A DNA stretch of 64,000 nucleotides from Gluconacetobacter diazotrophicus PA1 5 (GTDB lineage Bacteria; Pseudomonadota; Alphaproteobacteria; Acetobacterales; Acetobacteraceae), in contig NC_011365.1 in assembly GCF_000021325.1 (NCBI RefSeq), forward strand, positions 2,570,001 to 2,634,000, given 5' to 3'. Position 1 is the stretch's first letter, and the number at the start of each line of letters is the position of its first letter. Made by a program: the position numbers and the translations under genes. Positions 3 through 23,656 of the stretch are shown here, in pieces. Under the pieces are notes generated by a model. The model ran no database searches, was not told the origin of the DNA, and was given only the letters and a program-made list of their open reading frames with translations.

Positions 3-1793
3 ATCGATATCGCCTGGCAGGTCCTGAACCAGTTGCCCACCCATCGCGACGGCCTGAACACGGCCACCCTCTATGGGCCGCAGGATGCCGCATTGCAGCA
101 AAAGGTCGGGCAGGACGTGAACCGCGTCGAAGGGCTCAGCAAGTCCCTTGCGGAAGTCTTCAGTTTCAACGGCCATGTTCCCGTCACGGATCGCGTGGAC
201 GCCTACCTGACCGGAACGCTCGGCCACCGGACCACGGACCGGGTCGGGTTCCCACGCGGCCCGGCCAACAACAATAACGTCCGCGCGATCTACCCGAACG
301 GCTTCGCCCCGATCGAAACGTTCGATGAACTCGATTTCCAGGTGAATGGCGGCCTGCGGGGCGTGCTGCCGCTGGGCGTAAGCTGGAACACCTATTCCTC
401 GTTCGGGCGCGAGCAGGTGAACGAGGACGTGGAGAATGACCTCAATCCCACCTTCGGCGCCCAGAGCCAGACGAATTTCCACCAGGGTACCATCGTCGCG
501 TCCGAATTGATCGGCGGCGCCAAATTCTCCAAGGAATTCCGCAGCGCCGCGCTGCCGAAGCCCGCCGTCCTGGATTTCGGACTGGAATACCGGCACGATA
601 CCTATCAGCTGGGACAGGGCGATTATCAATCCTGGGCCACCGGGCCGGTCCTGATCGGCCAGACCGGCGTGCAGCCCAGTTCGGGCGCCGTCGGCTATGC
701 CGGCTTCGAACCCGTGAACGCGGGCAACTGGTCGCGCGACATCTTCGACGGCCATGTCGGCCTGGACATTTTCGTGACGAAGAAATGGGAATGGACGATC
801 GGCGGCCGCGCCGTCAGCTATTCGGACCTGGGCGCCGCGCCGACCGGGTCGATCGGAACGCGGTATAATTTCAGCCGTCGTTTCGCCTTGCGCGCCAACG
901 TCAATACCGGCTATCGCGCCCCCACGCTCGGCGCCGTCCATTACAACGCGACCTCGACCGGCCCGGGCGAGGTGACCGAGAACCTGTCCGATTTCGACCC
1001 GACCGCCAGGCTGCTCGGCGCGACCGGCGTGAAGGGCGAATCCTCGCGCAGCTACAATATCGGCTTCGACTGGACGCCGCTGGATTCGCTGCACCTGTCG
1101 CTGGACGGCTACCGGATCGACATCAACGACCGGATCGAAAGCACGACCGAATTTTCCGGGCCGCTGATGAACCAGTTCCTCTACAGCCAGGGAATCACTT
1201 CCAGCCCGACCGACAAGATCTACGTCACGTACATGACCAATATCGGCAATACGACGACGAACGGCTTTACCGGCAAGATCAGCTACCAGTTCCCGGTCGA
1301 TCCGTCCTGGGGCAAGCTGGTCGGCACCGTGATGGCGAACGCCGCGGACACGGAAGTCACGCATTACGCCAGCACGCCCGCGATCCTCGGCCAGTTGGGG
1401 CAGACCTATTTCGACAGCCTGTCGCGCAACAACCTGCTGCGCGCATCGCCCAAGAACAAGGAATCCTTCGCGCTGGACTGGTCCAGGGGGCGCTACAGCG
1501 TATACGTGCAGGAACAGCGCTATGCCGGCGTGGAATGGATCAACTACAGCGGCGATCCGGCATCGACATGGACGCATATCCGTCCGCAGGTCCAGACCAA
1601 CGTCGAATTCAGCGCCCGGGTGGGCAGGGGCTTCACCCTGACGGTCGGGGCCAACAACCTGTTCAACAAATACCCGACCCACGTCAAGCGCAGCACCGTG
1701 GCCGAGACCCAGGGAACGATCGCCTATCCCATGACCGCCCCGGGCGGCTACGAAGGCGGATATTACTATGCCCGGGTCGGCTACGTGTTCTGA
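3..1793 (+). CDS. TonB-dependent outer-membrane receptor, 3' part
   Basis: This is the C-terminal part of a TonB-dependent receptor that imports siderophores or other large ligands across the outer membrane. The frame is open to the left edge, so the plug domain and TonB box lie outside the window and the first in-frame TTG at 33 is not a credible start. About 595 residues of beta-barrel are visible: alternating polar and aromatic strands, 'FSRRFALRANVNTGYRAPT' near residue 295, and the terminal barrel region with 'NNLFNKYPT'. The chain ends in the aromatic pattern ARVGYVF that is typical of outer-membrane porin folds. The family call is secure. The ligand cannot be read from the sequence. 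Confidence 0.9.
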   Translation: MDIAWQVLNQLPTHRDGLNTATLYGPQDAALQQKVGQDVNRVEGLSKSLAEVFSFNGHVPVTDRVDAYLTGTLGHRTTDRVGFPRGPANNNNVRAIYPNGFAPIETFDELDFQVNGGLRGVLPLGVSWNTYSSFGREQVNEDVENDLNPTFGAQSQTNFHQGTIVASELIGGAKFSKEFRSAALPKPAVLDFGLEYRHDTYQLGQGDYQSWATGPVLIGQTGVQPSSGAVGYAGFEPVNAGNWSRDIFDGHVGLDIFVTKKWEWTIGGRAVSYSDLGAAPTGSIGTRYNFSRRFALRANVNTGYRAPTLGAVHYNATSTGPGEVTENLSDFDPTARLLGATGVKGESSRSYNIGFDWTPLDSLHLSLDGYRIDINDRIESTTEFSGPLMNQFLYSQGITSSPTDKIYVTYMTNIGNTTTNGFTGKISYQFPVDPSWGKLVGTVMANAADTEVTHYASTPAILGQLGQTYFDSLSRNNLLRASPKNKESFALDWSRGRYSVYVQEQRYAGVEWINYSGDPASTWTHIRPQVQTNVEFSARVGRGFTLTVGANNLFNKYPTHVKRSTVAETQGTIAYPMTAPGGYEGGYYYARVGYVF

Positions 1794-1905
1794 GCCACCG
1801 CTTCGAGGGTCCCGCCGCCGGCACGGGCGGATTGCGGTTGTCGCTGCAACCTCATGGCAGGCGGTCCGTTTTCGTCCGAGATTCATGACGACGGAGGACA
1901 CGACC

Positions 1906-2088
1906 ATGAGGCACGAACCGGAACAGGCCGACCGGCGGGACGACGGCGACGAAAAGCGCCATCCCGCCCCCGGCCTGGGCTCACCGCCCGAGGCCGTGCC
2001 CGACCCGGACGCGGAAACGCCCCCCAAGCCGGGCAACACGCCGAAGGACCTGCCCGAACCGCTGACCCTGCCGGAACATGGCGGCTGA
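1906..2088 (+). CDS. Small proline-rich hypothetical protein (60 aa)
   Basis: A 60-residue acidic, proline-rich protein starting MRHEPEQADRRDD and ending LTLPEHGG. The start at 1906 is chosen because GGAGGA (1893-1898) lies seven bases upstream. An in-frame ATG at 1885 has no such site. It has no signal peptide, membrane segment or recognisable domain and is probably disordered. It follows the TonB receptor by about 110 bases on the same strand, and the next gene is convergent. Function unknown. Confidence 0.55.
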   Translation: MRHEPEQADRRDDGDEKRHPAPGLGSPPEAVPDPDAETPPKPGNTPKDLPEPLTLPEHGG

Positions 2089-2095
2089 GGGCGTT

Positions 2096-2482
2096 CTAGG
2101 GTTCGATCAGGTCGTTAAGAATCCGCGGAATTTCCGATATGTCGTAGGGCTTGGGCACGAACCGGCTGCGGGTCAGGACGAAATCGTCCGATATCATGTG
2201 CTTTCCCGATGTCACCAGAACCCCCAGGCGGGGCCGGCTCTGGCGGGCGCGCAGCGCCAGTTCCAGGCCGTTCATCGACCCCGGCATATCGATATCCGTA
2301 AAGAGGGCATCGATATGCGTCGTCGTGCATTCCAGGACGGTCAGCGCCTCTTCGGCGTTGGACGCCTCGCGCACCTCGAAGCCATTGTCCCGCAATTCGG
2401 TCGCGACGGCCAGGCGCGTCAGGACCTCGTCTTCGGCAATGACGATGCGCGGGGGGATGTGCGGGGAATAACGGGCCATCAC
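2096..2482 (-). CDS. Single-domain response regulator (CheY-like receiver)
   Basis: A stand-alone receiver of 128 residues. The acidic pocket is visible as E17-D18 ('IAEDEV'), the phospho-acceptor is D63 in 'FTDIDMPG', the switch Thr/Ser sits in 'LVTSGK' and the conserved lysine in 'VPKPYD'. No output domain follows, so it probably acts by protein-protein contact or as a phosphate shuttle. It lies 36 bases downstream of a histidine kinase on the same strand and is presumably its partner. Many alphaproteobacterial single-domain receivers next to GAF-type kinases have this layout. Confidence 0.88.
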   Translation of the reverse strand: MMARYSPHIPPRIVIAEDEVLTRLAVATELRDNGFEVREASNAEEALTVLECTTTHIDALFTDIDMPGSMNGLELALRARQSRPRLGVLVTSGKHMISDDFVLTRSRFVPKPYDISEIPRILNDLIEP

Positions 2483-2518
2483 GCCTCTCGGGAAAGGACG
2501 GATACTTCGGATGCTGTT

Positions 2519-3709
2519 TCAAGCGCTCCGATCAGTAACGGAAAATACATAAGGCAGGCGGAACGTAAAGCACGTTTCGTCATTGCCCGATGTAACGGCC
2601 AGCCTTCCGCGGTGGGCCTTGGCGATTTCGGATACGATATAGAGGCCGAGACCCAGTCCCTGCTGGCTCGGCCGGTCGCCTCCCCGGAAGAACGGATGAA
2701 AAAGCTTCTCATGGGCTTCCGGCGGAATGGGTTTCCCCGCGTTGGATACCGACAATTCAAAGAATTTTTCATTTGTGCTCGCCCTGACGACAATCGGCTT
2801 GTCCGGGTCTCCATGCGTGACGGCGTTGCTCAGCAGGTTGGAAAACAACTGGGCGAGGCGGACGGTATCGCATGTCACGGCATGCTCCATCTGGAATCGG
2901 GTCTCGATACGTCGTTCCGGCCGGGTGGTCTTAACCTCCTGGACGATCTGTTCCAGGATGGCCTGCAAGGCATGTTCGACCTTCAGTTGCAGGGTAATGC
3001 CGCCCCCCAGCCGCCCCCGGGCGAAATCCATCAGGTCGTTGATCAGCGCCCCCATCCGGGCGGTGCTCTTCTGGATATGGGGCACCAGCTCGGCCGCCCG
3101 TTCCGGGTAGCGAAGCAGCATGCGTGTCCCGGATTCGATCGACATCAACGGGTTCCGCAGATCGTGACCCAGGACGGCGATGAACTGTTCCCGCAGTTCG
3201 GACTGGGTGCGCTCGTGCGACAGGATCGCCTCGTTCTCGGCCAGGCGGGAACTGGCATCGACATGGAAGGCCACCAGGTCGGCGAACAGCCGGAACATGG
3301 CAAGGATTTCGGGCCGGTCCAGGTCATGCGGCGCCGGATCGGCCGCGCACAGCGTGCCGAAGAACGTGCCGTCGGGCAGGCGGACCGGCACCACGATATA
3401 GCTTTGAAAATGATACTGCCGGGGGGATACATGGCGGGCGTAGGCCGGATCGGCATCGACGTGGTTGATCACGACGGCCTCCCCCCGGTGCAGGACGTCA
3501 TGGCTGATCGTCGTTTCCAGGGGCAGTTCGTCCCCGATTTCCAGCCCCAGATCGACGCCGTCCCGTACGGCGCAGGCCAGCCAGTATTCCGGCGTGACGC
3601 GTGCGACCGCGGCGAAGCGCAGGGACGTCGTGTGCTGCACGACATCGAGAATCTTCAGAAGAGCCGGAACGCGCCCCGCGACCCTGATGCCGTCGAGATA
3701 TTTTACCAT
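2519..3709 (-). CDS. GAF-domain sensor histidine kinase
   Basis: A soluble 396-residue histidine kinase with no membrane segment. An N-terminal GAF domain spans about residues 15-155 ('FQSYIVVPVRLPDGTFFGTLCAADP'). It is followed by a HisKA dimerisation domain with the phospho-accepting H182 in 'VLGHDLRNPL' and a HATPase domain with the N box 'LFSNLLSNAVTHG' and G box 'GLGLGLYIVSE'. It is transcribed just ahead of the single-domain receiver (36-base gap), which makes a two-gene signalling operon. GAF domains bind small ligands or chromophores; which one applies here is not visible. Confidence 0.9.
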   Translation of the reverse strand: MVKYLDGIRVAGRVPALLKILDVVQHTTSLRFAAVARVTPEYWLACAVRDGVDLGLEIGDELPLETTISHDVLHRGEAVVINHVDADPAYARHVSPRQYHFQSYIVVPVRLPDGTFFGTLCAADPAPHDLDRPEILAMFRLFADLVAFHVDASSRLAENEAILSHERTQSELREQFIAVLGHDLRNPLMSIESGTRMLLRYPERAAELVPHIQKSTARMGALINDLMDFARGRLGGGITLQLKVEHALQAILEQIVQEVKTTRPERRIETRFQMEHAVTCDTVRLAQLFSNLLSNAVTHGDPDKPIVVRASTNEKFFELSVSNAGKPIPPEAHEKLFHPFFRGGDRPSQQGLGLGLYIVSEIAKAHRGRLAVTSGNDETCFTFRLPYVFSVTDRSA

Positions 3710-4039
3710 GTCACCTAACAGTCGCTGCGCGAAATGAAACGGCCGATCGATACCGCAATGATGACATTGGCATGATACAGGGGATGGATGCTACCCGTCG
3801 GCCATCCATGATGCCGCCACGCGGCCATGCTCGGCGACCATTCCTTCGCCGTTCCCGATCCGCATGTTTTCCTGCAAAAAGTCCAGCACCGCCCTGATCC
3901 GCGCGGGCAATTTCCCATGATGGCCCAGATAGACCGCATGCGTATCCACAAGGGCCGGACTGTGGAACGCCTCCAGCACCGGAACAAGCTTGCCGGCCGC
4001 GATATGTTCGTCGACCTGGAACGCGGCCAGATAGGCTAG

Positions 4040-18265: not shown

Positions 18266-19222
18266 TTAACGCTCCGGCGGCAGGAACGCGCCGGCGGTGC
18301 GCGACAGCCAGGTGCTGAAGCGCACCAGGGCGGGCCGGTCCCGCCGGGTTTCCGGCACGAACAGCGTATAGGCCCCGATCTCCACGCCCGGAAACGGCGC
18401 GCCCGGCGGGCCCAGCCGCACCAGCGTACCGCGCTCCAGGTCGTCCGCCACCAGGAACGGATTGGCCAGCGCCACGCCCTGTCCCTCACGTGCCGCCGCC
18501 AGCACCACATGGGCATGCCACAGCCGCGCCGCCGGGGTGATGCGGGGCACGGCCACGCCCTGCCGCGCGAACCATGCCAGCCATTCGTGGCTGTCCTCCT
18601 CGGCCAGCAGCGGCAGCGCCGGCAGGTCGCCGATCGTGCGGATCGTGCCCGCGCGGCGGATGAAATCGGGGCTGGCGACCGGGAACACCACCGGCCGCGC
18701 CAGATCCACCCGGCGGATGCCCGGGGTGTCGTACGCGCCATCGGGCGCACCGCCGGGCGCGCCGTCCAGCCGATAGCGGATATCCGCATCCACCCCGTCG
18801 GACCAGAACGACGCCCGCGCGTCGGTCGGGCGCAGCACCAGGTCGATCTCGGGATGTTCGGCACGAAACGCGCCCAGCCGTCGCACCAGCCAGTGGAAGG
18901 CGAAGCCCGGCACGCACCAGACGCTCAGGTGCGACGCGTCGCCCAGGCGCAGCGCCTCGGTGGCGCTCGCGATCTCGTCCAGCGCCGCCGCGATCCGCGC
19001 GTGATAGGCCCGGCCCGCCGCGTTCAGCGTTCCCTGGCCCTGGCCGGGGGACCGGTCCAGCAATGGCACCCCGATCCATTGCTCCAGCGCCCGCACCTGC
19101 CGGCTGACCACCGCGTGGTCCACGCCCAGCCAGGTCGCGGCCCGGCGAATGCCGCCGGTCCGGCCGAAGGCGTCGAAGGCCCGCAACGGGGCGAACGGGG
19201 GAAGGGGGCGCCGGTCGGACAT
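18266..19222 (-). CDS. LysR-family regulator (GcvA-like)
   Basis: A 318-residue LysR regulator. The N-terminus 'RRPLPPFAPLRAFDAFGRTGGIRRAATWLGVDHAVVSRQVRALE' is typical of the GcvA/AmpR subgroup, followed by an effector-binding domain ('LSVWCVPGFAFHWLVRRLGAF'). The start at 19222 is chosen because homologues begin a few residues before 'LPPFAPLRAF'; the open frame upstream reads through intergenic DNA. It is divergent from the amine dehydrogenase operon across 302 bases, the usual LysR arrangement, which makes that operon its most likely target. Confidence 0.88.
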   Translation of the reverse strand: MSDRRPLPPFAPLRAFDAFGRTGGIRRAATWLGVDHAVVSRQVRALEQWIGVPLLDRSPGQGQGTLNAAGRAYHARIAAALDEIASATEALRLGDASHLSVWCVPGFAFHWLVRRLGAFRAEHPEIDLVLRPTDARASFWSDGVDADIRYRLDGAPGGAPDGAYDTPGIRRVDLARPVVFPVASPDFIRRAGTIRTIGDLPALPLLAEEDSHEWLAWFARQGVAVPRITPAARLWHAHVVLAAAREGQGVALANPFLVADDLERGTLVRLGPPGAPFPGVEIGAYTLFVPETRRDRPALVRFSTWLSRTAGAFLPPER

Positions 19223-19524
19223 GGGGCTCCGCAGTCTCGGATGCTCGGGTCGGGGGACCATGTGCGCATACCGGTGCCTTTTTGTCACCACCGCCGCACG
19301 CGAAGGCGCCTTCCACGCAACGTTACGGTCAACTAAGAAAAATCCGGTGTGCCGGAAGCGGGGGGACAGAAACTGTGCCTTGCCGGCAACAAAATGAAAT
19401 TTTCGAACATAGACCGCTCGGGTTCCATTCTGCCGCGTGCCGAAGCCCGGTAAAACCACCCCGGGGCCGGTGGATATACTTCGCCCCGCCGGGCCGCTCG
19501 GGGCCTGAAACTGCGGAAGTCTGC
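19223..19524. promoter_or_regulatory. Divergent intergenic region, LysR / amine dehydrogenase operon
   Basis: 302 bases without a gene between the divergently read LysR gene and the amine dehydrogenase heavy chain. The central part (about 19330-19420) is poorer in GC than its surroundings. It should hold both promoters and the LysR operator, but I cannot mark an unambiguous -35/-10 pair or a single T-N11-A site. Confidence 0.45.
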
Positions 19525-20754
19525 ATGATGCGATGGATGGCGATATCTCATGACCGGACCGGCCTGACGGAAAGCCGCCGCGTGCCGCGCGGCCTGGCGG
19601 TGCCGGGCGCGCTGCTGGCCGCCCGACTGGCCGTGGCGGTGGCCGTGGCGGGGGCGCCCGCGCCGTCCCGCGCCGCCGTCCCCCCGGTGCTGGAGGCGGA
19701 ACAGAGCGACGTCGCCACCCTGCCGCCTTTCGCCCCGCACTGGGTCCTGCCGCCCACCGCCCGCACCGCCTACACGCTCTATGACGCCGATGCCGGGCGC
19801 ATCCTCGGCACCATTCCCGCCGGCATCGTGGGCAATATCGCGCTGTCGCCCGACCGGCGCAGCGTCTATGTGGCCGATACGATCTGGTCGCGCGTCGACC
19901 ACGGCACGCGGCAGGACCTGCTGCAGGAATATGACGCCCGCACCCTGTCCCTGCGGCGCGAAATCACGCTGCCGCCCCGGGCGCTGGCGGTGTACCAGTC
20001 GCGCGACTTCGCCCTCAGCGCCGACGGCAGATGGGCCTACAGCTTCAACATGAGCCCGGCGACATCGGTCACGGTCGTCGACCTGGCCCATGCCGCGGTG
20101 GCGCGGACGGTCGACATCCCCGGCTGCGCCCTGGTCTATCCCTGGAAATCGGGCGGCTTCTCCAGCCTGTGCGGCGACGGTTCGCTGACCAATGTCGGCT
20201 ATGACGGCGGCAAGCCCACCGTCACCCACACCACCCCGTTCTTCGACGCGAACACCGACCCGATCTTCGAGGGCGCGCCGGTGGACCGCGCCACCGGCCA
20301 CGCCCTGTTCGTCTCCTATACCGGCAAGGTCTACGACGCGGCGCTGGGCCAGGCGCCCGTGATCGCGGCCCCCTGGTCCATCCAGCAGGCGGCGGGCCAG
20401 CCGGCGGCGGGCACCGGGGTGCAGGAACTGGCATGGCGTCCCGGCGGGTCGCAGCCCTTCGCCTGGAACCGCGCCACCGGGCACCTGTTCGTGCTGATGC
20501 ACACCGGCACCTACTGGACGCACAAGAACCCGGGCACCGAGGTCTGGGAACTCGATCCCGCCCGCCACGCGCTGGTGCGGCGCATCGACCTGCCCGCGCC
20601 CGCCCGCGGCATCGCGGTCAGCGCGGATGCCGCGCCGCTGCTCTACGCCGCGGCCCAGGACGGGACGATGGCGGTCATCGACGTGCGCACCGGCACGCTC
20701 CGCCGCAGTATCGAGGCCCAGGCCGGCCCCATGCTGCTGGCGCCCGACCTGTGA
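19525..20754 (+). CDS. mauB: Quinoprotein amine dehydrogenase heavy chain (MauB/AauB type)
   Basis: The large, beta-propeller subunit of a periplasmic tryptophan-tryptophylquinone amine dehydrogenase, which deaminates primary amines to aldehydes. It has 409 residues with a signal peptide ending near Ala50, then seven repeated beta-blades ('YTLYDADAGRILGTIPAGIVGNIALSPD' and later 'VWELDPARHALVRRIDLPAPARGIAVSAD'). Size and fold match MauB of methylamine and AauB of aralkylamine dehydrogenases. The start at 19525 or 19528 (two ATGs) is preceded by GCGGAAG. The light chain and maturation genes follow. Which amine is used cannot be told from this chain. Confidence 0.85.
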   Translation: MMRWMAISHDRTGLTESRRVPRGLAVPGALLAARLAVAVAVAGAPAPSRAAVPPVLEAEQSDVATLPPFAPHWVLPPTARTAYTLYDADAGRILGTIPAGIVGNIALSPDRRSVYVADTIWSRVDHGTRQDLLQEYDARTLSLRREITLPPRALAVYQSRDFALSADGRWAYSFNMSPATSVTVVDLAHAAVARTVDIPGCALVYPWKSGGFSSLCGDGSLTNVGYDGGKPTVTHTTPFFDANTDPIFEGAPVDRATGHALFVSYTGKVYDAALGQAPVIAAPWSIQQAAGQPAAGTGVQELAWRPGGSQPFAWNRATGHLFVLMHTGTYWTHKNPGTEVWELDPARHALVRRIDLPAPARGIAVSADAAPLLYAAAQDGTMAVIDVRTGTLRRSIEAQAGPMLLAPDL

Positions 20755-20767
20755 CGGGGACGGGACG

Positions 20768-21400
20768 ATGATCGATTCCCATTCCATGGCCGCGCTGGAT
20801 ACCAGCGCCATCCTGGCCTGGACCCAGGTGCTGGACTGGCTGCTGCTGCTGGCGCTGGTGCCGGTGCTGGCGCTGCTGTTCCGGCGCATGCGCCGCCTGT
20901 TCGCCCGCGTGGCGCCCGTGGGCGCGCTGATGACGTCCGGCGGTCCCGCCCCCGGCGTGCGCCTGCCGTCCCGCATCCTGCGCGCGCTGGACGGGGGCGA
21001 GGTCGCGCTGGGCGGCAGCCGCGCCGACGGCGGCAGCACGCTGCTGCTGTTCGTCTCCGGCGCCTGCCCCATCTCGCGCAAGATGCTGCCCATCGCGGGG
21101 GATTTCACGCGTCGCGAAGCCATCGACCTGCTGTGCCTGGGCGACGATACCGACGCGATGCAGCACGACCTGACCGCGCGGTTCGCCATTTCACCGTCCC
21201 GTTTCGTGAACGATCCGGAAATCGGCCGCATGCTGGGGGTGGACAAGCTGCCCTTCGCGTTCCTGCTGGATGCGACGGGCACGATCGTGGCCAAGGGCCT
21301 GGTCAACAGCCGCGAACATCTGGAAAGCCTGGTCGTGGCAGGCGAAACCGGCCATGTGTCCGTGCAATCCTACCTGGATGCCCGCCCTCACGCGGCCTGA
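20768..21400 (+). CDS. MauD-like thioredoxin-fold protein with degenerate CxxC (CPIS)
   Basis: A 210-residue membrane-anchored thioredoxin-fold protein: one N-terminal helix (residues 22-38), then a periplasmic domain. The layout and the tail ('GVDKLPFAFLLDATGTIVAKGLVNSREHLESL') match MauD, the protein needed for disulphide formation in the light chain. The redox site reads C100-P-I-S103, so the second cysteine is replaced by serine and the protein cannot cycle a CxxC disulphide. It lies 13 bases after the heavy chain and 34 before the light chain. A canonical MauD (CPVC) is encoded later in the operon. It may be a chaperone-like or monothiol paralogue. Confidence 0.8.
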   Translation: MIDSHSMAALDTSAILAWTQVLDWLLLLALVPVLALLFRRMRRLFARVAPVGALMTSGGPAPGVRLPSRILRALDGGEVALGGSRADGGSTLLLFVSGACPISRKMLPIAGDFTRREAIDLLCLGDDTDAMQHDLTARFAISPSRFVNDPEIGRMLGVDKLPFAFLLDATGTIVAKGLVNSREHLESLVVAGETGHVSVQSYLDARPHAA

Positions 21401-21434
21401 CGGGCCGCCAGGCTCTGAGGAGTGTAAAACGTCA

Positions 21435-22022
21435 ATGCCGGTCTCTTTCCTCGACACGCTGGGCGAAACCGTCACCCGGCGCCTGGCGGCACGTTCGTCG
21501 CGGCGCGGCATGCTGGGGCGCATCGGCGCCGCCATGGCGGTCGCGCCCGCCTTCCCGCTGCTGCCGGTCGCCCGGGCCGATGCCGCGCCCGCCGCCACGC
21601 CCGCCGCTACGTCCGGTCCCGCCCCGGCGACGCCCGACCCCGCGCTCAGCGATTTCGAACGCCGCGCGCAATCCGCCGATCCCACCAAATGCACGTACTG
21701 GCGCCATTGCGCGATCGACGGCGTACTGTGCGGCTGCTGCGGCGGCGGGGTGCACAGTTGCCCGCCCGGCACCCAGCCCTCGCCGGTGTCGTGGATCGGC
21801 ACCTGCCGCAACCCCGATGACGGCCGCGCCTACGTCATCGCCTATCGCGACTGCTGCGGCCGCAGCCTCTGCGCCGCCCCCAAATCCTGTTCGTGCAACA
21901 CCGCCGACCGCGAAATGCCGATCTATCGGCCGCAGGCCAGCAACGATATCATCTGGTGCTTCGGCACGGCCTCGACCGCCTATCATTGCTCGACCGCCGC
22001 GATCATCGGCCAGGCCGGCTGA
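21435..22022 (+). CDS. mauA: Quinoprotein amine dehydrogenase light chain (TTQ subunit)
   Basis: The catalytic small subunit, 195 residues. It starts with a twin-arginine leader ('SSRRGMLGRIGAAMAVAP', cut near Ala48-Ala50), as known for MauA. W120 in 'SPVSWIGTC' and W174 in 'NDIIWCFG' align with the two tryptophans that are joined to form tryptophan tryptophylquinone (Trp57 and Trp108 of the Paracoccus enzyme). The family core 'CTYWRHCAIDGVLC' and 'YRDCCG' is intact. The mature part carries 14 cysteines against the 12 I recall for methylamine dehydrogenase; the extra ones are C102 and C146. The family call is very safe; the substrate class is open. Confidence 0.93.
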   Translation: MPVSFLDTLGETVTRRLAARSSRRGMLGRIGAAMAVAPAFPLLPVARADAAPAATPAATSGPAPATPDPALSDFERRAQSADPTKCTYWRHCAIDGVLCGCCGGGVHSCPPGTQPSPVSWIGTCRNPDDGRAYVIAYRDCCGRSLCAAPKSCSCNTADREMPIYRPQASNDIIWCFGTASTAYHCSTAAIIGQAG

Positions 22023-22028
22023 CGGGCG

Positions 22029-22535
22029 GTGCGTCGGCTGCCGGTTCTCGGCCTGCTCGCCGCCATCGCGGCGGCACCGGTCCTCGCATACGGCGTTCCG
22101 GCCCCGGCCGGCATGCCGGTCGTGCCCATGGTCCAGGGCCATTACCTGGTGGGCTGCGGCGGCTGCCACGGCATCCAGGGCCGCTCGGGGCGCCAGGTGG
22201 TGCCCGACCTGGCCGGACAGGTGGGCTATTTCCTGTGTACCGGCCAAGGGCGGGACTATCTGGTCCGCCTGCCGAACGTGGCCTTCGCCAACCTGTCGTC
22301 GCACGACCTGGCCGACATGATGAATTTCGTGGTCTTCACCCTGGGCGGCGCCAGCGTGCCGCCGGGCGGCCGGCCCTACACGCCGGACGAAATCGCGGCC
22401 CTGCGGGCACAACCCTTGCGGGTGGCCGACCTGCACATGTACCGTGACCAGGTGGTCCGGGGCGTGGTGCGCGCCTGCCCGGCGGCGCGGGGGCTGCATG
22501 AATACGACACCGCGCAGGCCGCGCGCGAACGCTGA
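22029..22535 (+). CDS. Small periplasmic monoheme c-type cytochrome
   Basis: A 168-residue protein with a signal peptide (residues 1-20, cleavage near 'VLA-YG') and a single heme c site C43-G-G-C46-H47. Met97 or Met98 ('DLADMMNFVV') is a candidate sixth ligand. It starts at a GTG six bases after the light-chain stop. It is far too small and has one heme too few to be MauG, the diheme enzyme that makes TTQ. It could accept electrons from the dehydrogenase or take part in maturation. As I recall, a small monoheme cytochrome gene also follows aauA in aralkylamine dehydrogenase clusters. Confidence 0.85.
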   Translation: MRRLPVLGLLAAIAAAPVLAYGVPAPAGMPVVPMVQGHYLVGCGGCHGIQGRSGRQVVPDLAGQVGYFLCTGQGRDYLVRLPNVAFANLSSHDLADMMNFVVFTLGGASVPPGGRPYTPDEIAALRAQPLRVADLHMYRDQVVRGVVRACPAARGLHEYDTAQAARER

Positions 22536-22556
22536 CGGGATATGGAACAGGGAGAG

Positions 22557-23099
22557 ATGATGGATTCGTTCGACCACGCAGTCGCGCCGGTAACGGCGGC
22601 GCTGCTCGCCGGGGGCGTCGGCGTGCTGCTGCTGGCCGCCGGGATTGCGAAACTGCGTGATCGCGACACGTTCCTTGGCACGCTCGCCGCCTACCGGCTG
22701 CTGCCCGATCCGCTGCTCGGCCCCGCCGCCTGGGCGCTGGGGGCGGTGGAAACCGTCCTGGGCGCGATGCTGCTGGGCGGGGTGTCCGTGCGCGCGGCCG
22801 GGTACGGGGCCGCCCTGCTGTTCGTGCTGTTCGCACTGTCCATGGCGGTCAACGTGATGCGCGGCCGGACCGACCTGTCCTGCGGCTGCCTGCCGGGCCT
22901 GGCCTCGGCGCGGCTGTCGTGGGGCGCGGTGGCCCGCACGCTGCTGCTGGCGCCGCCGGCGCTGCTGCCCGGCCTTGCCGGCCTGCCCGCCGCCGCCCTG
23001 CTGCGCTATCAGTCCCTGGCCGCCGGGGCCTGCCTGCTGGCGCTGGGGCTGGCCGCATCGCACCTGCTGCCCGCCGGTGCCGAGGAACCGTCCGCATGA
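22557..23099 (+). CDS. mauE: Amine dehydrogenase maturation membrane protein MauE
   Basis: A 180-residue integral membrane protein with about four to five helices, matching MauE, which is required with MauD for folding and disulphide formation of the light chain. The conserved cysteine pair is visible in 'RTDLSCGCLPG' (C109 and C111). The start at 22557 follows AGGGAGAG; an ATG at 22542 is possible. The stop overlaps the start of mauD (ATGA at 23096-23099), so the two are translationally coupled. Confidence 0.85.
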   Translation: MMDSFDHAVAPVTAALLAGGVGVLLLAAGIAKLRDRDTFLGTLAAYRLLPDPLLGPAAWALGAVETVLGAMLLGGVSVRAAGYGAALLFVLFALSMAVNVMRGRTDLSCGCLPGLASARLSWGAVARTLLLAPPALLPGLAGLPAAALLRYQSLAAGACLLALGLAASHLLPAGAEEPSA

Positions 23100-23656
23100 T
23101 GACTGCCCTGATCGTCTCGCAGATCCTGCTGTTCGCCGCGATCGTCGTCCTGGTCCTGGTCGTGCTGGCCCTGGCCCGCCAGATCGGGGTGCTGCACGAA
23201 CGCATCGCCCCCATCGGCCTGCAGCAGCCCCAGTCCGGGCTGGATGTCGGGCAGGTGATTCCGCGCATCACCATGCGCACCCTGTCCGGCGCGCCGTTCC
23301 CGATGGGCGAGGCCCTGCCGCCGGGCACCGTGCGCATGCTGCTGTTCGTGGCGCCCGACTGCCCGGTCTGCAAGCGCGTGCTGCCCGTCGCGCTGGACGT
23401 GGCGCGTGATCGCGGACTGGACCCGGTCCTGGTCGGGGACGGCGCCCCGCCCGAACTGGTCGCGATGCGCGACCGGATGGGCCTGGGCGGCGTCGCCTTC
23501 GTCACGGGGGTCGAACTGGGCCTGGTGCTGCAGGTCAGCCGCCTGCCGACCCTGGTGCTGCTGGATTCCAACGGCACCATCCTGGCGAAGGACGTGGTCA
23601 ATACGCGGCGGCAGGTCGAAGCCCTGATCCCCGCCGCCGCCGGGCGGGCGGCGTAG
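23096..23656 (+). CDS. mauD: Amine dehydrogenase maturation thioredoxin MauD
   Basis: A 186-residue thioredoxin-fold protein with an N-terminal membrane anchor (residues 3-28) and an intact redox site C89-P-V-C92 in 'VAPDCPVCKRVLP', as in MauD. It is thought to introduce or isomerise the light-chain disulphides in the periplasm. The cis-proline loop is 'VSRLPTLVLLDSNG'. It is the last gene of the operon; its start overlaps the mauE stop, and the convergent aminotransferase gene ends 15 bases downstream. Confidence 0.88.
   Translation: MMTALIVSQILLFAAIVVLVLVVLALARQIGVLHERIAPIGLQQPQSGLDVGQVIPRITMRTLSGAPFPMGEALPPGTVRMLLFVAPDCPVCKRVLPVALDVARDRGLDPVLVGDGAPPELVAMRDRMGLGGVAFVTGVELGLVLQVSRLPTLVLLDSNGTILAKDVVNTRRQVEALIPAAAGRAA

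Follow-up and report, generated by a model that had tools for sequence, protein, structure and literature searches.

How is the TTQ cofactor of an amine dehydrogenase made when no mauG gene accompanies the enzyme? In the textbook account TTQ is completed by MauG, and to our knowledge aromatic amine dehydrogenase (AADH) has long been noted as lacking it; we found nothing on a MauG-free route in the open-access literature. The question arises again in Gluconacetobacter diazotrophicus PA1 5, in a window of 64,000 nucleotides (NC_011365.1, positions 2,570,001 to 2,634,000; positions below are those of the window). We put it at about even that a monoheme cytochrome encoded there, here called C, is a TTQ-maturation protein in MauG's place: its linkage to such loci is observed, and its chemistry is what we infer.

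The six close-set genes listed by the sequence-only reading are all present on the plus strand at 19525-23656, with the corresponding family matches, and a divergent regulator adjoins them:

18266-19240, minus strand: LysR-family regulator (PF03466 and PF00126; start codon uncertain), GcvA-like but under the NCBIfam cut-off
19525-20754, plus strand: putative TTQ amine dehydrogenase heavy chain (PF06433, 148.9 bits, over the Pfam cut-off)
20768-21400, plus strand: MauD-like protein with CPIS replacing CPxC (TIGR02661, 130.4 bits, below the cut-off of 188.6)
21435-22022, plus strand: putative TTQ light chain (PF02975, 177.7 bits, over the Pfam cut-off)
22029-22535, plus strand: monoheme, c552-like cytochrome C, candidate TTQ-maturation protein (single CGGCH at 22155-22169)
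22560-23099, plus strand: MauE (PF07291, 82.4 bits)
23096-23656, plus strand: MauD with a CPVC motif (TIGR02661, 141.6 bits, below the cut-off)

Among the window's ORFs of 100 aa or longer, none has two CxxCH motifs, in agreement with the earlier statement that no diheme protein is encoded there. The host genome (3.91 Mb, 99.99% complete) carries a second TTQ locus, at about 41.7-44.4 kb of contig G000:C1, made up of heavy chain, light chain, C and a sister cytochrome, S.

Both chains resemble those of known TTQ enzymes. The heavy chain matches AADH and methylamine dehydrogenase (MADH) heavy chains with phmmer E-values of 7e-39 to 9e-38. In the light chain, W120 (codon 21792-21794) and W174 (codon 21954-21956), already assigned to the cofactor positions from the sequence, match the corresponding tryptophans in the solved light chains of MADH (3c75) and AADH (2agl), and an 11-row alignment shows no variation at either position. 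In a wider set both tryptophans and D139, which we take to be the catalytic Asp, are conserved in 90 of 91 rows; the one exception is truncated. On the light-chain tree, a 100/100 branch separates the window from the AADH of A. faecalis, and the mau clade forms its own 100/100 group with the window outside; on the heavy-chain tree the window is likewise separate from mau. The suggestion of an aralkylamine-type enzyme is thus not upheld, and its alternative, a new specificity, may hold; with both chains outside the methylamine and the aralkylamine clades, we reject either identity. On the best explanation, the operon encodes a periplasmic amine dehydrogenase that belongs to neither the mau nor the aau lineage but to a third, and that presumably carries TTQ.

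Gene content differs as well. The mau cluster of a Paracoccus denitrificans plasmid (L167) has heavy and light chains, MauE, MauD and the TTQ tryptophan pair in common with the window, but it also has mauF, amicyanin, mauJ, mauG and genes annotated as napG/napH; the window operon has no mauG and does have C, which L167 lacks. The cluster annotated as aau on a Pseudomonas aeruginosa plasmid (L170) likewise has no mauG and carries C beside its light chain. Its gene order is heavy chain-MauE-MauD-light chain-S-C, as against heavy chain-MauD-like-light chain-C-MauE-MauD in the operon here, where S is absent; the sequence-only reading had noted a different order in aau clusters. A search of 298 genomes did not bring up the aau cluster of A. 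faecalis. As a point against a maturation role for C, recombinant AADH is reported to have formed TTQ in a Paracoccus host from an incomplete cluster, although that host has its own MauG.

The main evidence for C is its distribution. Among 191 confident light-chain loci (a redundant set, which omits five light-chain matches under 120 bits, namely L166 and four in L174), C occurs without MauG in 178, MauG without C in five, both in none and neither in eight. Less than 4 kb of sequence follows the light chain in 42 of the 191 (30 of them short loci), where the absence of MauG is weakly tested; restricting the count to the 149 loci with 4 kb or more downstream gives 138, five, none and six. Of the eight loci with neither gene, two stop where the light chain ends and one, from a MAG, is of mau type; for the other five, the host genome carries C elsewhere. 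Genome G974 has two loci, one of mau type with MauG and one with C. In genome-wide searches, every one of the 33 genomes searched that have a non-mau TTQ locus gives a match to the C profile of 66 bits or more, whereas in 110 light-chain-negative genomes the score does not exceed 31.5 bits. This pattern, in which C accompanies the light chain at 178 of the 191 loci and no locus has it together with MauG, fits the earlier suggestion of a part for the monoheme cytochrome in TTQ formation. PF03150, the MauG superfamily, is wholly absent from 5 of 28 TTQ genomes. On the trees, however, MauG has a single origin, so that the mutual exclusion of C and MauG amounts to little more than one event, and amicyanin or another mau gene could equally be what C replaces. 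The MauG clade is placed among the C-type loci, so that MauG may be the later replacement.

We also considered whether another gene could make the cofactor. The recurrent labelled genes of 63 C-type loci are those for the light chain, C, the heavy chain, MauD, MauE and sometimes S; these loci were chosen for having C, so that only their other genes are informative, and large clusters of unlabelled ORFs among them were taken as antisense shadow ORFs from two examples per cluster. As far as this survey goes, it leaves no other recurrent gene as a TTQ maker.

C itself is a secreted-looking protein of 168 aa with one CxxCH. No Pfam family, PF03150 included, matches it at E of 0.001 or below. Its closest solved relative is cytochrome c552 of Thermus thermophilus (1c52; phmmer E 8.4e-8), and Foldseek supports a c552-like fold (probability 1.00, E 0.011, TM 0.60). 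From the GRxYL motif to the last core helix C is shorter than c552, which presumably bears its axial Met in this stretch. A 16-column segment is missing from C; in S, it includes a Met that is conserved in 38 of 40 distinct sequences. No axial Met or His is conserved across 119 distinct C sequences. Where the sequence resumes past the missing segment, the first residue is His in 26 of them, Met in 25, Phe in 24 and another residue in 43, with one gap; with His or Met at this position in 51 of the 119, six-coordination is possible in those subfamilies. From the missing ligand segment alone, we predict an open, five-coordinate heme site, which would be high-spin and reactive towards H2O2. A Cys pair is also common (101/127 and 95/127 rows, in an alignment that omits four C-labelled ORFs without CxxCH, two from L034 and one each from L128 and L173, as well as the short duplicate loci L141-L153 and loci L234-L289).

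The proposed role of C is that of P. denitrificans MauG, namely to oxidise the tryptophan pair to TTQ. MauG, however, carries two hemes and is about 390 aa long, and we saw no sequence kinship between the two. In our model, MauE and MauD would set the disulfides of the light chain, and the open heme of C, a c552-type site that has lost its axial-Met segment, would react with H2O2 or O2 to give a ferryl species. C would then draw electrons from the two light-chain tryptophans, leading to their cross-link and oxidation to the quinone. That TTQ forms in this enzyme at all, how the heme of C is coordinated, its reaction with peroxide and the effect of C on the light chain are all predictions of the model.

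The main rival, which we regard as unlikely but still a serious contender, is that C is the physiological electron acceptor, a counterpart of amicyanin or azurin, and that TTQ is finished by another protein or spontaneously. C is after all a secreted-looking c-type cytochrome encoded beside the structural genes, and several mau loci without C carry amicyanin (L167, L178). C also occurs without S in 133 of the 191 loci, where an electron-carrier role for it is plausible. Against this reading, the axial ligand expected of a carrier is not conserved in C, a Met-bearing S beside C (45 of 191 loci) would be redundant, and no other recurrent gene is left in the loci to make TTQ.

Improbable in our judgement is a spontaneous formation of TTQ after the disulfides are in place, with C merely stabilising or delivering the precursor. 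PMC7876137 describes the first hydroxylation of MADH as thought to be autocatalytic, but also has the later steps in the mau system require MauG. In addition, C is kept in nearly all loci, which suggests that it serves a required step.

Likewise improbable is the view that a diheme protein encoded elsewhere makes TTQ in trans while C has a different role. The genome encodes two PF03150 proteins outside the window. L001 has three CxxCH motifs, with Met at the ligand position, and L002 is a BthA-like diheme protein, so that we take neither for a true MauG. The genome-wide search for a mauG homologue nevertheless had a mixed outcome: L002 carries Tyr (ligand), Trp (inter-heme) and Glu at the MauG columns, but scores 209.6 bits against BthA and 126.8 bits against MauG. 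The Burkholderia protein BthA (6nx0) has the Tyr in common with L002, whereas its inter-heme column holds Ser where L002 and MauG have Trp. L002 also adjoins a phosphoesterase gene, as BthA does, although the partner of BthA named in PMC6405878 is a purple-acid phosphatase and the phosphoesterase beside L002 is of a different family. Of 18 TTQ-bearing Acetobacteraceae examined, 13 have a Tyr-type diheme, and of 70 light-chain-negative ones 13 have an L002-like protein, a higher frequency in the former, with the two sets scored by different criteria, sampled differently and unmatched for lineage; the survey took in 47 of 48 PF03150 genes, a second G215 gene, which would be the 14th Tyr-type, being outside the count. 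Their presence in most TTQ-bearing Acetobacteraceae makes a helper in trans possible in this genome. However, L002 lies 1.77 Mb from the operon and is distant from both TTQ loci, its relatives also occur in genomes without a light chain, and TTQ genomes G443, G169 and G242 have no intact Tyr-type diheme, in addition to those devoid of PF03150.

Finally, a decayed locus, or a light chain without TTQ in an enzyme of other function, is very improbable: neither chain reaches its NCBIfam MADH equivalog cut-off (TIGR02659, 182.3 vs 196.85; TIGR02658, 147.8 vs 454.45), but the TTQ residues are intact and Gluconacetobacter relatives preserve the gene set and order.

With C as the preferred candidate, the puzzle of an AADH without MauG becomes a test on one small gene, found with TTQ enzymes and, in this sample, never beside mauG. 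More tentatively, and with slightly less than even confidence, we suggest that in most of the TTQ family the cofactor is made by a dedicated open-site monoheme cytochrome and not by diheme MauG. If so, a protein of about 15 kDa with a single heme would carry out a multi-electron Trp-Trp cross-linking and oxidation once thought to need two hemes. C would then represent a minimal heme system for tryptophan cross-linking and could aid the expression of TTQ enzymes in ordinary hosts, and MauG would become the exception.

The sequence-only reading placed six close-set genes here, and all were confirmed at their positions on the forward strand:

19525-20754, +, heavy chain
20768-21400, +, MauD paralogue with CPIS
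21435-22022, +, light chain (W120, W174, D139)
22029-22535, +, small monoheme cytochrome with one CGGCH, here called C
22560-23099, +, MauE
23096-23656, +, MauD with CPVC
upstream of the operon, divergent, LysR gene

By alignment, W120 and W174 match the TTQ tryptophans of the solved light chains of methylamine dehydrogenase (MADH) and aralkylamine dehydrogenase (AADH), as had been proposed, and D139 is the counterpart of their Asp, which we take to be catalytic. The Trp pair and the Asp are retained in 90 of 91 light-chain rows, that is, in all those covering these positions. Among ORFs of 100 aa or more in the window, none carries two CxxCH, in agreement with the reported lack of a diheme protein. 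One-Cys versions of MauD such as the CPIS paralogue recur in Acetobacteraceae next to a CPxC copy (CPIS in 23 and CPVS in 8 D-labelled ORFs, counting duplicates, with 60 ORFs unclassed by the motif pattern).

We gathered light-chain loci with profile HMMs from a genome-collection scan (best 80 of 586 confirmed), 299 Acetobacteraceae genomes, a phylum sample of 398 genomes, two class samples of 385 and 369, the family of genome G443 (298 genomes, 30 loci taken) and 12 plasmid regions. Among the 196 matches, the 191 scoring at least 120 bits were counted, taking C within 2.5 kb of the light chain and MauG within 7 kb of sequence examined. C without MauG was found at 178 of them, MauG without C at 5, both at 0 and neither at 8, in a set that is redundant, skewed to Acetobacteraceae, Sphingomonadaceae and Burkholderiaceae, and holds few mau loci. 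The corresponding figures are 150, 5, 0 and 8 for the 163 distinct light chains, 138, 5, 0 and 6 for the 149 loci with at least 4 kb of sequence downstream, and 119, 5, 0 and 6 for the 130 that are both. Among the loci with neither gene, L123 and L259 are cut off by the ends of their contigs; L258, from a MAG, is of the mau type and has mauF, mauJ and amicyanin, MauG being absent from the stretch examined; and for L073, L139, L236, L250 and L257, C lies elsewhere in each genome. L236, L250 and L257 are heavy-light pairs whose genomes bear C at another TTQ locus, which suggests that C is able to serve in trans. A Thermomicrobium roseum plasmid carries an array of light-chain-like ORFs (L174, 3061-9378), which score 31.8 to 118.5 bits and form a distant branch of the family. 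A gene annotated as MauE-like accompanies them, but C and MauG are both absent.

The linkage of C to TTQ extends to whole genomes. A profile of 70 C sequences (alignment A2) matches all 30 TTQ genomes of the main run (minimum 66.2 bits), both further TTQ genomes (191.2 and 100.3 bits) and genome G974 (116.8 bits); profile and TTQ genome set overlap in some species, and beyond these genomes the search covered a minority of the other TTQ genomes of the survey. Light-chain-negative genomes gave matches at E <= 0.001 in 27 of 70 Acetobacteraceae (maximum 31.5 bits) and 10 of 40 others (maximum 23.5 bits), and the profile never exceeded 22.2 bits in three draft genomes that have mau alone (78-82% complete) or in three mau plasmids. 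The source genome (G000; 3.91 Mb, 99.99% complete) holds two TTQ light-chain loci, each with one strong C gene (188.9 and 171.5 bits). The locus outside the window (L033, 4668-7411; G000:C1 about 41.7-44.4 kb) has the order heavy chain, light chain, S, C, where S is a second, Met-bearing small cytochrome (24 bits to the C profile). It has no adjoining mauD or mauE, and so would depend on those of another locus. In G215, a genome of the same species, one C gene (L034, 6108-6290) shows two substitutions relative to the window copy, as well as four single-base gaps at the heme motif, and so reflects either a damaged gene or an error in sequencing; C is intact at the other TTQ locus.

No family model of its own could be found for C in Pfam or NCBIfam: the full-length window protein has no Pfam match at E <= 0.001 and no NCBIfam family, and the mature part falls short of generic cytochrome c (21.0 bits, cut-off 21.3). 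The nearest solved protein by sequence is Thermus cytochrome c552 (E about 8e-8), also nearest by the fold predicted with AlphaFold2 (mean pLDDT 93.7; Foldseek probability 1.00, but E 0.011 and TM 0.60). In a profile-profile alignment of C with S (99.6% probability), C is missing a 16-column segment that contains the axial Met of S, a Met present in 38 of 40 distinct S. Among 119 distinct C, the residue that directly follows this segment, F86 in the window, is His in 26, Met in 25 and Phe in 24; another 43 have one of ten further residues, and 1 has a gap. Between alignment columns 40 and 169, none of Met, His and Lys is conserved in >75% of these rows; that level is passed only by a Cys (93) and by the GRxYL Tyr (105), a Tyr frequent in S too. 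C thus has no conserved axial ligand, although the subfamilies with His or Met at that position may yet provide one.

At 63 non-redundant loci selected for the presence of C, the recurring labelled genes are light chain (63), C (63), heavy chain (61), MauD (59), MauE (54) and S (22). MauD and MauE serve disulfides, MauG finishes TTQ and amicyanin takes electrons; C is the only recurrent cofactor protein remaining for the maturation step in C-type loci. We propose that C, its heme coordination leaving the site open, would form a ferryl species as oxidant, with the light-chain Trp pair as target; S, where present, would be a natural electron carrier. To C as TTQ maker we give slightly less than an even chance, the main rival being that C is the electron acceptor of the enzyme. 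We found no MauG-free TTQ route in the open-access literature; to our knowledge, aau clusters lack mauG, and recombinant AADH is reportedly active in a Paracoccus host.

A diheme acting in trans is a further alternative. The whole-genome check for MauG homologues found two proteins of its superfamily (PF03150), both outside the window. L001 carries three CxxCH, and its ligand column holds Met. L002 (83-2655; G000:C1 about 820.0-822.6 kb) is a Tyr-type diheme: it has two CxxCH, with Tyr where MauG has its Tyr ligand and Trp in the inter-heme column, but is nearer BthA than MauG (209.6 versus 126.8 bits). It adjoins a PF04185 phosphoesterase, whereas the phosphatase of BthA is reported to be of the purple-acid type, a different family (PMC6405878). 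Proteins like L002 were found in 13 of the 70 light-chain-negative Acetobacteraceae (E <= 1e-40). Among 28 genomes with TTQ loci, five encode no PF03150 protein (G178, G219, G556, G355 and G487; all about 100% complete except G178, the last two single contigs), those of G443 and G169 are all Met-type, and in G242 the match is split. On the other hand, Tyr-type dihemes are common among the TTQ-bearing Acetobacteraceae (13 of 18 examined). Since some TTQ genomes lack PF03150 or Tyr-type proteins, a diheme in trans cannot explain TTQ formation in general; it could do so in the source genome.

The aralkylamine-type assignment of the sequence-only reading is not borne out: in the light-chain tree (91 rows), a 100/100 branch parts 40 rows with the A. 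faecalis AADH from 51 with the window. On the AADH side 36 rows have C and 4 do not, one of the latter being the AADH sequence itself, which lacks genome context. Neighbouring genes do not settle the substrate: at L037, in a Gluconacetobacter relative, the LysR gene and the heavy chain are separated by a TonB-dependent receptor plug domain (1095-3929), and at L075 an aldehyde dehydrogenase and an amidohydrolase lie upstream of the TTQ genes. Nor is the window squarely among methylamine dehydrogenases, lying outside the mau clade in both trees. In the light-chain tree it sits among 41 other rows (94/89), and the mau clade, on the same side (7 rows, 100/100, containing every MauG locus), joins, at 89/84, three loci from genomes G898 and G974, of which two have C. 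In the heavy-chain tree, built by a quick method from 80 rows without an AADH reference, mau stays together (100), but the loci of G898 and G974 group with those around the window (88). As C-type loci flank the mau clade on both sides in both trees, the simplest history would be that MauG was gained once, in the mau line, and the mutual exclusion of C and MauG would then amount to little more than a single event. More weight falls on the link between C and TTQ, which holds across many families.
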